IMG/VR virus record: IMGVR_UViG_3300044608_000966
Coordinates: 1 to 40,630 of that record
Origin: a virus
DNA: 40,630 nt
Reading direction: 5' to 3' (one strand)
The position numbers and the translations under genes were made by a program. Below are positions 15,648-21,265 of the stretch, piece after piece; position 1 is the first letter of the stretch; every line of letters starts with the position of its first letter. The notes under the pieces are model-generated. The model was not told the origin of the DNA. It saw only the letters and a program-made list of their open reading frames with translations, and did not search any database.

Positions 15648-15942
15648 TTTGCTTTTCCTTCTTTTTCCTGCCGCCTCTTGGCGGTCCGTTAAAGTAACCT
15701 AGTTGCTGTAATCGTTTTTTTGTCGCCCTGTTTATGTCCCAGCTTATTTCCATGCCTGGGTAGTACGGAGGACAATCCGAACATCTTTCCACCATGATGT
15801 AATCTTTCTTTTCTCCGTAACGCTTTTGGCAGTGAGGACAGATGAAGCCGTATTCAACAGGATCGCCATCACGATACACCCACCAAATGTATTCAAGCGG
15901 ATCATACCAGTAACCGGCTTCTGACATTGATGGGGCTTTCAT
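15604..15942 (-). CDS. Zinc-ribbon protein (112 aa)
   Basis: Two Cys pairs, ICPHCQKRY and ERCSDCPPYYPG, about 30 residues apart, form a probable zinc ribbon. The N-terminal SEAGYWYDPLEYIWWVYRDGDPV is rich in Trp and Tyr, and the tail is basic (NGPPRGGRKKKEK). Phage-terminase GpA-type and other nucleic-acid enzymes carry similar ribbons, but nothing else of those families is present. The start is at the ATG overlapping the helicase stop (TGATG), with AGAGG just upstream. Likely a DNA- or RNA-binding replication accessory. Confidence 0.72.
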   Translation of the reverse strand: MKAPSMSEAGYWYDPLEYIWWVYRDGDPVEYGFICPHCQKRYGEKKDYIMVERCSDCPPYYPGMEISWDINRATKKRLQQLGYFNGPPRGGRKKKEKQNETVQLVKETMQDL

Positions 15943-17213
15943 CACGCCTCTTCGTAAATATTAAAGTGGTGAATGTGCCGAAGCTTTGTAACGCCTGTCA
16001 TGCCGTAGCGATTTTTGCTTATGCTAAGAGCCACCTCAGAGTCTGCAATGTCGCGCTTGTGAAGAATCATAACAACGTCCGCATCCTGTTCTAAGCTTCC
16101 AGAGTCTTTGAGCTGGCTAAGAGATGGTAAATCTTCCTTGCCACCCTTCTCAGCCTCACGGTTAATTTGCGCTAGTCCTACGACAGGAATGTTTAGATCC
16201 CTGCTAAGACGCTTCATGGCGTCAGATACCGTACTTACTTGTTCGTATTTGCTCTTAGAAGATTTAACACGAACTTGCTGCAAGTAGTCAACAAAAACCA
16301 TGTCGCACTTACCATCTCTGTGCTGGCGGTAGACCGTTGTTAGAAGCTCATCAAGATCCCACCCAGACTTTTCATCGATGGAGATATTATACTTTGCAAG
16401 ATCGTTTGATGCTGCCATGAAGCGTGTAAGATCTTCGTCGGTCAGATTACCTGTCTGAAACTTGTGTGTGCCGACTTTAGCTTCTGCCGCAATAAACTTT
16501 TCGATGATGTCTTCCTTGTCCATTTCGTTGCTAAAAAATAATGGCCTCTTGCCTTGCTTCATTGCTTGTAGTGCCATCCAGGTGGCGAAGCTTGTCTTGC
16601 CCACTGATGTCCTAGCAGCGACGATGTAGAATCGTCCACCGACAAGGCCAGCGATGTAAGCATCAAGCTTAGTAAGTCCCATTGATACGCCTCTAGGTTT
16701 ACCTTGTGCGTTCATGGTGATTCTTTGTTCTATGCGATCTGCCGCGCTTTCTATCATCGCGGGCATCTCTGGAAATTTCTGAGATATGACGCTCATGCGC
16801 TCAGTTTTGTCGGCAATGTTTTTTAGTTCTGAGATAACTGGCTCTACAGCGTCTGAGTAGTTTGCTTTTATAATCTGCTGAGAAAGATCAGATAGGTTAA
16901 GAACTACTTGCTTCACGTTATACCAGCTTGTGAGCTGAGACATGAACCAATCAATGTTTACTTCAAGCATGGATGTCTTGATAAGCTGGATAAGAAGTCC
17001 TGCACATTCACCGCCTAAGCTTTCTCTCACCGTCGCGTAGTTTACTTCTGTGCCCTGATCACTGAGAGTCTTGATAGCGAAAGCAATTTTGATTCTTTCG
17101 AAGTCTCCAAACATCTCAGGCTTCCAGTGATGGCATACTTCAGGCCAATACCTTTTGTGCTGAGATAAAACCATGCCAAGGATTTGATCTTGAAATTCGT
17201 AGTTCATAGCCAT
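15942..17213 (-). CDS. Replicative DNA helicase, DnaB-like (423 aa)
   Basis: The N-terminal helical domain is followed by a linker and a RecA-like core with Walker A ARTSVGKTS (about 200-208), FFSNEMDKEDI, Walker B MVFVDYLQQV, and GLAQINREAEKGG ... LSQLKDSGSLEQDADVV, the diagnostic end of DnaB/P22 gp12 helicases. It would unwind DNA at the fork as a hexamer loaded by the initiator encoded just upstream. The start MAMNYEF (or MNYEF six bases later) follows AAGGTGAG. It overlaps the initiator gene by 10 nt, like the 18-12 gene pair of P22. Confidence 0.92.
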   Translation of the reverse strand: MAMNYEFQDQILGMVLSQHKRYWPEVCHHWKPEMFGDFERIKIAFAIKTLSDQGTEVNYATVRESLGGECAGLLIQLIKTSMLEVNIDWFMSQLTSWYNVKQVVLNLSDLSQQIIKANYSDAVEPVISELKNIADKTERMSVISQKFPEMPAMIESAADRIEQRITMNAQGKPRGVSMGLTKLDAYIAGLVGGRFYIVAARTSVGKTSFATWMALQAMKQGKRPLFFSNEMDKEDIIEKFIAAEAKVGTHKFQTGNLTDEDLTRFMAASNDLAKYNISIDEKSGWDLDELLTTVYRQHRDGKCDMVFVDYLQQVRVKSSKSKYEQVSTVSDAMKRLSRDLNIPVVGLAQINREAEKGGKEDLPSLSQLKDSGSLEQDADVVMILHKRDIADSEVALSISKNRYGMTGVTKLRHIHHFNIYEEA

Positions 17214-17986
17214 CTCACCTTGTCTTCCCATTTTTCTTTTTCTTTGGTTTTGTTTTCGTAGTTACCTTCAATGATCTTGATGCGGTTGTTCTCGGACATG
17301 ATCCAGTCAAAGTTTGCTTTCCACACCCCAGACTTGCCTGTGAGGAAGTCACTAGCCTTGATCTTGGTGATGGCGTCTTGCCAATGAGCAATGTCTGGGT
17401 ACTTCTTGATCTGCGCATTGAGGGTCGTACGTCGTTTCATCGTAAGCCTGATCACCTTGGGAAGTACGCCCGCAAGATCCTTGTTCCACATGGTTACTAT
17501 TTCATCAGCCTTATCTGGGGTATTATGTTCTGTATTTGTTTCATTCTTACTTTCTTTATTTCTTATATTCTTCAATATGTGGCTCTCCGATGGCTCTCCG
17601 ATGGTTCTCCGATGGTTCTGCGATGGCTCAACCGCTGGTTCTTCCATACCTTCCATGCTCTGATATTTGTCGTAATTACAGATAGTTATGATCGATCCTG
17701 TGTTGGTTGTTTCGATGGTTATAATTTCTTCAATTTCAAAATTTTTTAAGCGTTTTCGTATCAACCCCCTGGCGCAACCTAAAGCTAACTCCATTTCTTT
17801 GACACTTGTAACAAGGCTTCCGCGCTTAACTGTGATTCTTTTATGACCACTTCTAGCTAACGCTTTGCCGTCCGTATAATTGGCATTAGAGATCAGCCAA
17901 AACAAAATGCCTATGTCGGTGGCATCATATGTGCCATCGCATAAGCTACGACTTATCTTTACCCAACCGCCTGTGAATCTACCCAT
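17204..17986 (-). CDS. Replication initiator, O / gp18-like (260 aa)
   Basis: The N-terminal region (1-105: GRFTGGWVKISRSL, ILFWLISNANY, RITVKRGSLVTSVKEMELALGC, then RKRLKNFEIEEIITIET) reads as a winged-helix domain of the phage O/DnaD-type replication proteins. A polar linker (about 110-165) contains the repeat region described separately, and the C-terminal 95 residues should contact the helicase. The start MGRFTGGW is chosen for AAGGA 8 nt upstream; the frame extends to 18088 without a good site. It lies directly upstream of the DnaB-like helicase. Confidence 0.82.
   Translation of the reverse strand: MGRFTGGWVKISRSLCDGTYDATDIGILFWLISNANYTDGKALARSGHKRITVKRGSLVTSVKEMELALGCARGLIRKRLKNFEIEEIITIETTNTGSIITICNYDKYQSMEGMEEPAVEPSQNHRRTIGEPSESHILKNIRNKESKNETNTEHNTPDKADEIVTMWNKDLAGVLPKVIRLTMKRRTTLNAQIKKYPDIAHWQDAITKIKASDFLTGKSGVWKANFDWIMSENNRIKIIEGNYENKTKEKEKWEDKVRWL
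17519..17647. other. Candidate replication origin: 11-bp iterons plus AT-rich tract inside the initiator gene
   Basis: Four tandem 11-bp units start at 17581, 17592, 17603 and 17614: GGCTCTCCGAT twice, GGTTCTCCGAT, GGTTCTGCGAT. Degenerate units follow at 17625 and 17637. Eleven is not a multiple of three, so the repeats do not give a repeated peptide (the protein reads EPSQNHRRTIGEPSESHI), which points to a DNA-level function. In coding direction a strongly AT-rich stretch (17580-17519) follows. Lambda has the same order, iterons then an AT-rich stretch, inside gene O. Confidence 0.68.
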
Positions 17987-18186: not shown

Positions 18187-18648
18187 CTACGACAACCTCA
18201 AGTTAGTCTCAACAATGTTCCACAAGGCTAGTAATCCTTGGTCTTTGCAAATCTGTTTTGCTTTCTTTGCAGTCAAGCCGCCATCAATTTGAAAGTGAGC
18301 CTTTTCAAACTTCAATGGTTTAAAGCCATGACGTTTAAACACTTCTGTAATTTTATCGTAATCAATAGACCAGTCCCATTTCTTATTGTAGTAGCCGACG
18401 ATATCGACCGCTAAACCATATTGATGAAATGATTCGTATGGACGTGCATTGGTGATTATTTTTCCATCCCTAGTGCGGCCCTGGTCATACAGCCATTGCT
18501 GTCTATCAGGCGATCTATAGCCCTCAAATACAGCGACGACATAACCAAGCGAAATACATTCGGCTAGTGCTGCGTTTAACTTAACTACAAGAAAAGGTGC
18601 AAGTTTTGTGGCATCTCTACAAACAGTTTGCACTTGAGATTTTGACAT
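18187..18648 (-). CDS. M15-family peptidase, endolysin (153 aa)
   Basis: Zinc peptidase motifs are complete: EGYRSPDRQQ, the SFHQYGLAVDI signature (His75, Asp82) and KAHFQI (His118). The family cleaves peptidoglycan stem peptides (L-Ala-D-Glu or D-Ala-D-Ala type) and phage members release progeny. The start MSKSQVQTV is chosen for GAGAGGA upstream rather than an in-frame ATG at 18705, which would overlap the divergent gene. No signal peptide or cell-wall-binding domain is present, so it would need a holin. It leads the minus-strand replication gene set, away from the structural genes. Confidence 0.9.
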   Translation of the reverse strand: MSKSQVQTVCRDATKLAPFLVVKLNAALAECISLGYVVAVFEGYRSPDRQQWLYDQGRTRDGKIITNARPYESFHQYGLAVDIVGYYNKKWDWSIDYDKITEVFKRHGFKPLKFEKAHFQIDGGLTAKKAKQICKDQGLLALWNIVETNLRLS

Positions 18649-18686
18649 GGTAGTAATCCTCTCCCTCAAACAACATAGGAGCATAT

Positions 18687-18863
18687 ATGCCAGCGGAGCC
18701 AACACCTTATGAGCGCGTTAATGTCATTATACCACGTCAACTTAAACGGGAGTTAATCAAGTACGCCAAAGAAAACGAAAGCAGTCTTACAAGAATCATG
18801 CGTTTAGCTCTTCGTGAATACATTGGTAAGACGACGAAAGGAAAATCTGATGTCAGAAAATAA
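18687..18863 (+). CDS. Ribbon-helix-helix DNA-binding protein (58 aa)
   Basis: An AGGAG site 5 nt upstream of ATG starts a frame reading MPAEPTPYERVNVIIPRQLK, followed by ELIKYAKENESSLTRIMRLA and LREYIG. The pattern (a short beta strand RVNVIIP, helix QLKRELIKYAKEN, turn ESS, helix LTRIMRLALREYI) is that of CopG/Arc-type repressors, which bind operator half-sites as dimers. It is the first gene of the plus-strand operon, diverges from the endolysin with a 38-bp gap, and overlaps the next gene by 14 nt. It is the best candidate for a phage-coded transcription regulator. Confidence 0.78.
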   Translation: MPAEPTPYERVNVIIPRQLKRELIKYAKENESSLTRIMRLALREYIGKTTKGKSDVRK

Positions 18864-19416: not shown

Positions 19417-19682
19417 AGTCCGACGATGAAATTAATGAAGAAGCTTATGAAAGCATAATGCAAGATAAGGACGATATAATTGATATCAGAGATAAATACG
19501 CCAAAGTCTTGGATGCTTTTAAAGAAGAAGAAGATTCACCAATCCTATTTATACTGACGCAGAACATCGTCTTAGGAATGGAAGCGGCTCTACTGAATAT
19601 CGATAACCTAGTCAGCATCTACTTGAATGAACACGTCAAACCAAAAACAAAAAAAGGAGTTAAACGTGAGCGAATTAACTAA
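19413..19682 (+). CDS. Acidic unknown protein (89 aa), TTG start
   Basis: The start is TTG at 19413, 7 nt after a strong GGAGGA, overlapping the stop of the Gp157-like gene. The protein is very acidic and helical at first ([20 protein letters not shown]) and basic at the end ([14 protein letters not shown]). Its 3' end overlaps the annealing-protein start by 17 nt. DNA-mimic or accessory functions are conceivable, but no family is recognised. Confidence 0.68.
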
Positions 19683-20535
19683 CTACCATCCGGTTCCTGA
19701 ACTACTGTTTAGCGCGGAACAAGTTAACCAAATCAAAACACAAATATGCAGAGGCGCATCAGATGACGAACTTTCAATGTTTCTTTATCAGTGCAAGCGC
19801 ACTAGGCTTGATCCTTTTGCTAAACAGATTTATGCCATTAAGCGATATGATTCAAGAGAACGAAAAGAAGTCATGGGTGTGCAAACAAGTATTGACGGAC
19901 AAAGACTTATTGCACAGCGCACCGGAGAATATGGAGGACAAGAAGGGCCATACTGGTGCGGAGATGATGGAGTCTGGAAAGATGTCTGGATTTCAGACAA
20001 ACCACCAGTTGCAGCAAAGGTGGGTGTATTGCGAAAAGGGTTTTTACAACCACTCTTCGCAGTAGCTAAATTTAATAGTTATGCACCACGCGGCAAAGAT
20101 GGCCAGCTTACAATGTTCTGGTCAAAAATGCCCGACACAATGATTGCTAAGGTGGCTGAAAGCTTGGCTTTGCGCCGCGCCTTCCCGCAGGAGTTAAGTG
20201 GTCTTTATACATCAGAAGAAATGGAGCAAGCTAATGTTACAACGATTGACGCAAAACCAGCCTTGGTACCGCAGAATAATCAGCCTATTGTGGTTAAAGC
20301 GGAGGATGCCGCTCCACGGAACGCTGCCACTTCGCCTACGATGGTTTGGGACAAGCACAACGCCCAGCACCAAAAGAAGGTTGCTGAGTTCGTTAGATCG
20401 AAAAATCAACCAACATACTGGGTTAAATTGATGGAGATGTTGGATGGCAAAAACCTTTCACAGCAAGTATTAAACGAAACATGGGCGATGCTTGACCCCG
20501 AAGCTCCAGATAAAGATCCGGAGGATGACAAGTGA
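19666..20535 (+). CDS. bet: Single-strand annealing protein, Bet/RecT superfamily (289 aa)
   Basis: The segment [20 protein letters not shown], then [35 protein letters not shown], and [37 protein letters not shown] are hallmark regions of lambda Bet-type proteins, which anneal complementary single strands during phage recombination. A GTG start at 19666 with AAAGGAG 6-7 nt upstream is preferred to the in-frame ATG at 19627 inside the preceding gene. The C-terminus beyond residue 200 is variable and ends acidic. No Exo-type partner nuclease is adjacent. Confidence 0.92.
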
Positions 20536-20893: not shown

Positions 20894-21265
20894 ATGGCTA
20901 AGGGCGACAACAACAAATGGCAAATTGAAGGATATGTATTTAATGATGCTGAAATCAAGACAAGCCGCGACGGTAGCAAGAGTTGGGGTGAGGTTACGGT
21001 GTCGGTCTACTCCGGCAGTAAACTTAAGCCTAAAAAACTCTGGGTTAGATGCACATCGTTTGGCGATGAGAAGTCTGCCTTGGTGTCGTTTGCAAAGAAG
21101 GGCGCAAAGGTTAAGGTCACAGGAAAGCTAGACGCTGACGCCTATATTAGCAAGAAAGACGGCAAACCTTCGGCAGCACTAAACCTGCTGGTAAGAGAGT
21201 TTGAAGTGCTTGAAGCCCCTAAAGCTCCAGGCATCGGCGACGGTGAGTTTGAGCTTCCATTTTGA
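20894..21265 (+). CDS. ssb: Single-stranded DNA-binding protein (123 aa)
   Basis: An OB-fold pattern is visible (KWQIEGYVFNDAEIKTSRDG, WGEVTVSVYSG, KKLWVRCTSFGDEKSALVSF, KVKVTGKLDADAYISKKDGK) and the protein ends in an acidic/hydrophobic tip, DGEFELPF, which resembles the SSB C-terminal tail that recruits replication and repair proteins. It is well preceded by AGGAGG. The location in a recombination operon with Bet suggests use in both replication and strand annealing. Confidence 0.9.
   Translation: MAKGDNNKWQIEGYVFNDAEIKTSRDGSKSWGEVTVSVYSGSKLKPKKLWVRCTSFGDEKSALVSFAKKGAKVKVTGKLDADAYISKKDGKPSAALNLLVREFEVLEAPKAPGIGDGEFELPF

Follow-up and report, generated by a model that had tools for sequence, protein, structure and literature searches.

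The initiator gene and its internal repeats

The stretch of DNA analysed here, which we call the window, is a virus record of 40,630 bases. It carries a gene for a putative replication initiator followed, on the same strand, by a gene for a DnaB-type replicative helicase, the start of which overlaps the 3' end of the initiator gene by 28 bp. The features on which the analysis draws are listed below; with the exception of the helicase gene, all lie within the initiator gene.

17204-17986 (-): initiator gene, 260 aa, with an N-terminal winged helix, an iteron-bearing linker and a helical C-terminal domain
17732-17770 (-): recognition-helix codons (residues 73-85), from the modelled secondary structure; the second-best region for predicting the unit sequence
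17681-17722 (-): wing-hairpin codons (residues 89-102), from the modelled secondary structure
17711-17721 (-): upstream wing-coded iteron 1, TAACCATCGAA; own-core matches in the family at -61/-62
17699-17709 (-): upstream wing-coded iteron 2, CAACCAACACA; own-core matches in the family at -49/-50
17660-17689 (-): inter-block element coding for ITICNYDKYQ, ATAACTATCTGTAATTACGACAAATATCAG; wobble positions conserved relative to own codon usage
17580-17641 (-): linker iteron block with six GARCCA cores, starting at 17641, 17629, 17618, 17607, 17596 and 17585
17540-17579 (-): A-rich tract, the presumed unwinding element, directly after the last core; 80% AT
15942-17231 (-): DnaB-type replicative helicase gene (Pfam DnaB_C, 5.6e-65; phrog_19, 1.7e-77)

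The initiator matches the PHROG families 'replication initiation protein', 'DnaD-like helicase loader' and 'replication initiation O-like' (1e-26 to 1e-17); a Pfam search gave no match, although the second of these labels names a DnaD-like protein. An AlphaFold2 model made with a 30-row alignment gave a confident winged helix (residues 21-110, mostly pLDDT 87-97 in blocks), in which residues 73-85 form the recognition helix and residues 89-93 and 98-102 the wing strands. The model continues with a disordered linker (residues ~112-156) and then the helical C-terminal domain. A single-sequence model was discarded (pLDDT 35). Profile and fold searches of the PDB with the initiator returned generic winged helices only, the best at E = 0.015 to CodY; the plasmid initiator domains 4pql and 4pt7 were weak fold matches among many winged helices.

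The gene directly upstream of the initiator (18187-18705, minus strand) is peptidase-like and, by eye, of the endolysin type ('GYRSPDRQ...H..GLAVDI'), an unusual neighbour for a replication operon. Also by eye, we noted candidates for a RecT-like annealing protein (19627-20535, plus strand) and a single-strand binding protein (20894-21265, plus strand); these putative recombination genes lie on the opposite strand and diverge from the initiator-helicase operon.

Within the linker codons, the six cores follow each other at 12, 11, 11, 11 and 11 bp. The first, starting on the coding strand at 17641, is GAACCAgcggtt; the second to fourth are GAGCCAtcgca (17629), GAACCAtcgga (17618) and GAACCAtcgga (17607); and the fifth and sixth are GAGCCAtcgga (17596) and GAGCCA (17585). 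All core copies in the window have the same orientation, on the coding strand. With a score of 30, the array ranks first among the tandem repeats of the 40.6-kb window, and nothing else exceeds the cut apart from its own 22-bp harmonic. Codon shuffles of the initiator gene matched the array's score with p = 0.005, which is the floor of the test.

A preliminary description of this DNA had reported four near-identical 11-bp units in the initiator linker. These are indeed present, at 17580-17626, but the starts given for them (17581, 17592, 17603 and 17614) are one position off, and four is too low a count: they are the four most alike of the six cores. It had also reasoned that, since 11 is not a multiple of three, the encoded peptide is not repeated, and that the conservation must therefore lie at the DNA level. 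The premise is only half right; the cores occupy all three reading frames, but 3 x 11 nt equals 11 codons, and the linker peptide recurs as EPSQNHRRTIG/EPSESH. Because the peptide does recur, DNA-level conservation had to be examined with synonymous-codon controls, and across relatives these bore the claim out, as described below.

The origin coordinates proposed at that stage (17504-17647) also miss two further copies upstream, at 17721 and 17709. Relative to the NYDKYQ motif, these wing copies lie at -62 (TAACCATCGAA) and -50 (CAACCAACACA). They fall under the strict cut used for the family count and were left out of it; as individual sites they are suggestive. On the other side of the array, the AT-rich tract and the helicase gene that had been placed after the units in the coding direction were both confirmed at the positions listed. 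The tract is markedly richer in AT than the whole initiator gene (80% versus 57%) and has an A-T skew of 0.40, being A-rich on the coding strand. The cumulative GC skew of the window showed no sharp switch that would by itself place an origin; near 18 kb there is a local minimum, which tracks the switch in coding strand.

Conservation of the layout among relatives

We collected 96 relatives from IMG/VR and bacterial genomes, anchored them at NYDKYQ and kept one per 70% identity group, leaving 82 loci. An unbiased set comprised 17 anchored relatives that came from protein or profile searches alone, without use of a DNA pattern. Two further scans of IMG/VR yielded few additional loci, and searching 297 genomes of a single order for prophages turned up six new loci, of which three could be anchored. 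Scans of IMG/VR with the exact unit DNA matched only the window's twin and two other phages. The twin (L002) is the sole close relative, and its initiator gene is identical to that of the window, so there is no short-distance variation to compare.

In the 120 nt after the motif, self-matching at lag 11 across the 82 loci was 0.401, compared with 0.295 in codon shuffles (z = 25) and with 0.323 after synonymous resampling of codons within each gene (z = 21); values at lags 12, 22, 23 and 24 were raised too. An array was found at p <= 0.01 (codon shuffles) in 68 of the 82 relatives, with about a sixth having none at that level, and in 13 of the 17 members of the unbiased set. The first core usually lies 17-18 nt past the NYDKYQ motif, early steps are mostly 12 bp and late steps mostly 11 bp, and the layout seen most often (20 loci) has five cores, at steps of 12, 12, 11 and 11 bp. 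The unit sequence itself varies by phage (CGGGACA, CGACGCA, CGATACA, CGGACA, GGACCA, AACAAAC and others). Linker peptides vary among relatives as well, while the period and position of the DNA repeats persist; the alignment of initiator genes suggested in the preliminary description, which asked whether units are kept while the peptide varies, was thus positive across the 82 relatives. The array, its periodicity, its fixed position and its conservation at the DNA level are direct outcomes of these computations. A free alignment of the cores (expectation-maximisation with per-column mutual information) gave misregistered cores and was dominated by phylogeny, and hence was not used.

The A-rich tract is also a family feature. 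AT content after the last core exceeds that of the gene by 0.20 and 0.18 in the first two 20-bp bins, the excess is confined to these 40 bp, and the A-T skew reaches 0.47.

For the region ahead of the linker, each locus was scanned with its own core matrix over the 110 nt upstream of the motif. There were 88 own-core copies, compared with ~3 expected from flanks, with peaks at -73, -61 and -49; the opposite strand had practically none. In the wing segment only, 80 own-core matches were found in 56 of the 82 loci, against 1.3 with the cores of other phages and 16 with synonymous resampling (sd 3.8, maximum 26). The excess of wing copies is at the DNA level, though the reading frame common to both blocks explains ~16 of the 80. 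Sulfitobacter phage pCB2047-A, for example, has CGGGACA at -72, -61, -49, 17, 39, 50, 61 and 72, and one wing copy near -50 is present in S. aureus phage PVL, Enterococcus phage EH-TP1, Staphylococcus phage phi879 and a prophage on a Paracoccus megaplasmid.

In the ITICNYDKYQ codons, which lie between the two blocks, certain wobble bases are preserved in both directions (ATA, AAT, TAC, AAA, TAT), and this holds in GC-rich phages too. The strongest of these is the A of TAAC, which is present in 80 of 82 loci (20.9 expected; z = 16.4) and in 16 of the 17 loci of the unbiased set (4.3 expected; z = 7.0), where TAAC is kept whichever of the amino acids I, V and L is encoded. Wobble conservation is much lower at codons for invariant R and G residues in other parts of the domain. 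We restrict the claim to TAAC because in the unbiased set the signal at the remaining wobble positions is weak. As a guess, TAAC may serve as a contact for a host factor or for the initiator.

Over all 9-residue windows of the domain, and with domain identity held constant, the wing was the best predictor of unit similarity (partial r = 0.17), followed by the recognition helix (partial r = 0.11; Mantel-type p = 0.005). We do not take the wing's score as evidence of protein-DNA contact, since iterons are present in the wing codons themselves; core copies are rare in the recognition-helix codons. Among helices of the form VxRF, pairs with the same x had an identical hexamer in 26% and 38% of cases (30-40% and 40-50% background identity, respectively), compared with 3% and 4% for pairs with different x in the same bins (stratified permutation p = 0.001). 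The link is weak overall and is absent under 30% background identity. By eye, R at position x goes with GACGCA and D or E with GGGACA, whilst Q goes with GATACA, A with GCGACA and V with GGAACA (two loci each); exceptions exist, e.g. DKKRVRRF with GGACCA. Like the wing copies and the A-rich tract, this link between recognition helix and unit is a computed result.

A probable origin within the initiator gene

These observations point to an in-gene theta replication origin of the SPP1 oriL kind inside the window's initiator gene, a reading that we consider very probable (probability roughly 0.87). We infer that core binding, tract opening and helicase loading take place in the window phage, as follows. 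The winged-helix domain would bind a 6-7-bp core once per 11-12 bp, i.e. roughly once per helical turn, at six cores in the linker codons and at two in the wing codons about six turns upstream. The recognition helix would sit in the major groove of the core, with initiators arranged head to tail on nearly one face of the DNA, and the resulting nucleoprotein structure would open the adjacent A-rich tract at 17540-17579. Relaxed B-DNA has 10.5 bp per turn; with steps of 11-12 bp, the DNA in a straight filament would be slightly underwound, and this could aid opening of the tract. The six helical turns between the blocks might be accommodated by looping, or by a continuous filament across the inter-block element. 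Gene order suggests that the C-terminal domain would recruit the phage's own DnaB-type helicase, no separate loader gene being seen adjacent.

Other readings of the repeats have to be weighed against this. They could serve the protein, as a linker peptide repeat that binds a partner, and three 11-bp units do make an 11-residue repeat. The excess at lag 11 over synonymous resampling, the use of all three frames by the cores, and the persistence of the DNA period where linker peptides differ among relatives render this highly unlikely. Slippage generates tandem repeats, but a chance or slippage-born array without function can practically be dismissed, given that place, period and orientation are constant, and the sequence different, in dozens of divergent phages and prophages. 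It is also conceivable that the initiator binds the cores mainly for autoregulation (repression or a roadblock of its own operon) or for copy control, with the origin elsewhere. The sites do lie inside a transcribed gene and upstream of the helicase gene, and iteron-bound initiators can control copy number too, as in iteron plasmids. We nevertheless find this improbable, since the A-rich tract is always immediately past the last core, the homologous SPP1 locus is a proven origin (PMC6316719), and there is genetic evidence in 80alpha (PMC5499656).

A true lambda-O-type origin would have a homologous initiator and palindromic 18-bp iterons. In its favour are the shared order, i.e. an initiator with internal iterons, an AT-rich tract and a helicase-related gene, and the weak match to PHROG 'replication initiation O-like' (1.1e-17). 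However, the window protein has no BLAST similarity to lambda O (E = 0.54), its similarity to P22 gp18 extends over only 20 C-terminal residues (E = 0.005), the 11/12-bp array is absent in lambda (p = 0.30) and in P22 (p = 0.62), and the window units are direct, without two-fold symmetry. We regard this possibility as very unlikely.

That an iteron origin can be nested in an initiator gene is already known, as are the 11-bp repeats of SPP1 gene 38 within a known origin. The literature searched did not describe the family-wide layout, the copies in the wing codons, the link between helix and unit, or the TAAC element, although older SPP1 studies could contain parts of these. With slightly better than even confidence, we propose a phylum-spanning origin class in which the wing is encoded by the initiator's own site copies. 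The layout would be a wing block, ~66 bp, a linker block at 12-12-11-11 and a 40-bp A-rich tract, with TAAC between the blocks and a partly readable VxRF code (R GACGCA, D/E GGGACA, Q GATACA, A GCGACA, V GGAACA). Such a class would cover phages and prophages of Alphaproteobacteria, Gammaproteobacteria, Firmicutes, Bacteroidetes and others. If it is true, origin specificity could be predicted from sequence: an anonymous repeat would become a predictable origin class, anchored by SPP1, where the origin is experimentally proven. Should the wing copies and the helix code prove correct, the origins and initiator specificity of many uncultivated phages would be readable from sequence, and a joint change of specificity of the initiator and five to eight sites, which themselves also encode part of the DNA-binding domain, would become testable.

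Relation to known origins

In lambda, the initiator gene contains iterons and then an AT-rich tract, and the next gene is for helicase loading, an order like that of the window. The iterons are different: lambda has four, annotated as 18-bp sites spaced 20, 24 and 23 bp, whereas those of the window are 11-bp direct repeats. The lambda iterons are two-fold symmetric as published (PMC7466680). P22 resembles the window in having its origin in the initiator gene (18), followed directly by a DnaB-like helicase gene (12), and there is a weak C-terminal resemblance, but gene 18 is without an 11/12-bp array.

Direct-repeat iterons bound by winged-helix initiators are also found in iteron plasmids and with RepA_N initiators (pSK41, PLE RepA); searches for sequence or fold similarity between these initiators and that of the window gave no significant match. 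A relative of the winged-helix domain, unannotated and with 37% identity, is encoded on small Salmonella plasmids of about 5.87 kb (CP148862 and relatives), which are possibly a small replicon that uses a window-type initiator.

Repeat arrays were also noted in other genes. At three loci (L099:4185-4928, minus strand; L100:363-1346, minus strand; and L105:1177-1887, PP9W2), the window unit GAACCATC is present in 3-4 copies at 11-bp steps, in genes for initiators with a helix-turn-helix domain other than the window's, which may reflect convergence or linker exchange; in L099 and L100 the gene contains a further, separate repeat of 22 bp. Marinitoga camini virus 2, a phage of a thermophile, has a short initiator-like gene (L107:1318-1950) with seven TGAACCAGnnnn cores, each step being exactly 12 bp. 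In Pseudomonas phage phi297, a gene annotated as encoding a replication protein (L104:874-1896) carries a 24-bp repeat that includes GTCAC and, in addition, a microsatellite-like GACAGG run, a different iteron design.

Among the closest known counterparts is SPP1. The window protein is a distant homologue of SPP1 G38P (E = 1e-6, 28% over 82 aa; BLASTP), and the winged helix of a relative retrieves SPP1 gene 38 at 3e-9 in a protein search. Gene 38 contains five 11-bp direct repeats, AAACGACAnnn, after a wing-NYxKWQ motif, in the same place as in the window, and the two loci share a winged-helix initiator, an AT-rich tract beside the repeats and a helicase gene in the operon. The oriL direct repeats, which are bound by SPP1 gp38, lie in gene 38 next to an AT-rich unwinding element, and in vitro reconstitution of theta replication from oriL has been achieved (PMC6316719). 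There are also differences. The unit is AAACGACA in SPP1 and GARCCATC in the window; SPP1's only wing copy, at -40/-41, is weak; ATAAAG stands in place of the TAAC element; and SPP1 needs a separate loader (gene 39), whereas in the window the helicase gene is directly next. SPP1 has a second origin, oriR, which is not known to define the class; there was no second core cluster of this kind in the 40.6-kb window. The SPP1 layout (L228) appears shifted by about one turn: its cores, 28-72 nt past the anchor, start one unit later than in most relatives, and the upstream copy is at -40/-41 rather than -49.

Two staphylococcal phages extend the comparison. Orf46 of PVL, a G38P-like initiator, has eight 11-bp CAACATCAAAn units, which differ from the window's, and a single wing copy, at -50. 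The G38P homologue of S. aureus 80alpha, ORF20, could not be complemented in trans, which its authors read as reflecting an embedded origin (PMC5499656). ORF20 pairs with a DnaC-like loader and the host DnaB, while the window has its own DnaB-type helicase gene.

The 'distinct iteron type' of the preliminary description is distinct relative to lambda but not within this family, where an 11-bp pitch is normal, SPP1 gene 38 included. Its label 'lambda-type' fits the gene order but neither the protein nor the form of the iterons, and Neamah et al. call G38P unrelated to lambda O (PMC5499656). Since the window protein has homology to the SPP1 initiator and no BLASTP similarity to lambda O, 'lambda-type' should be replaced by 'SPP1 oriL-type'.
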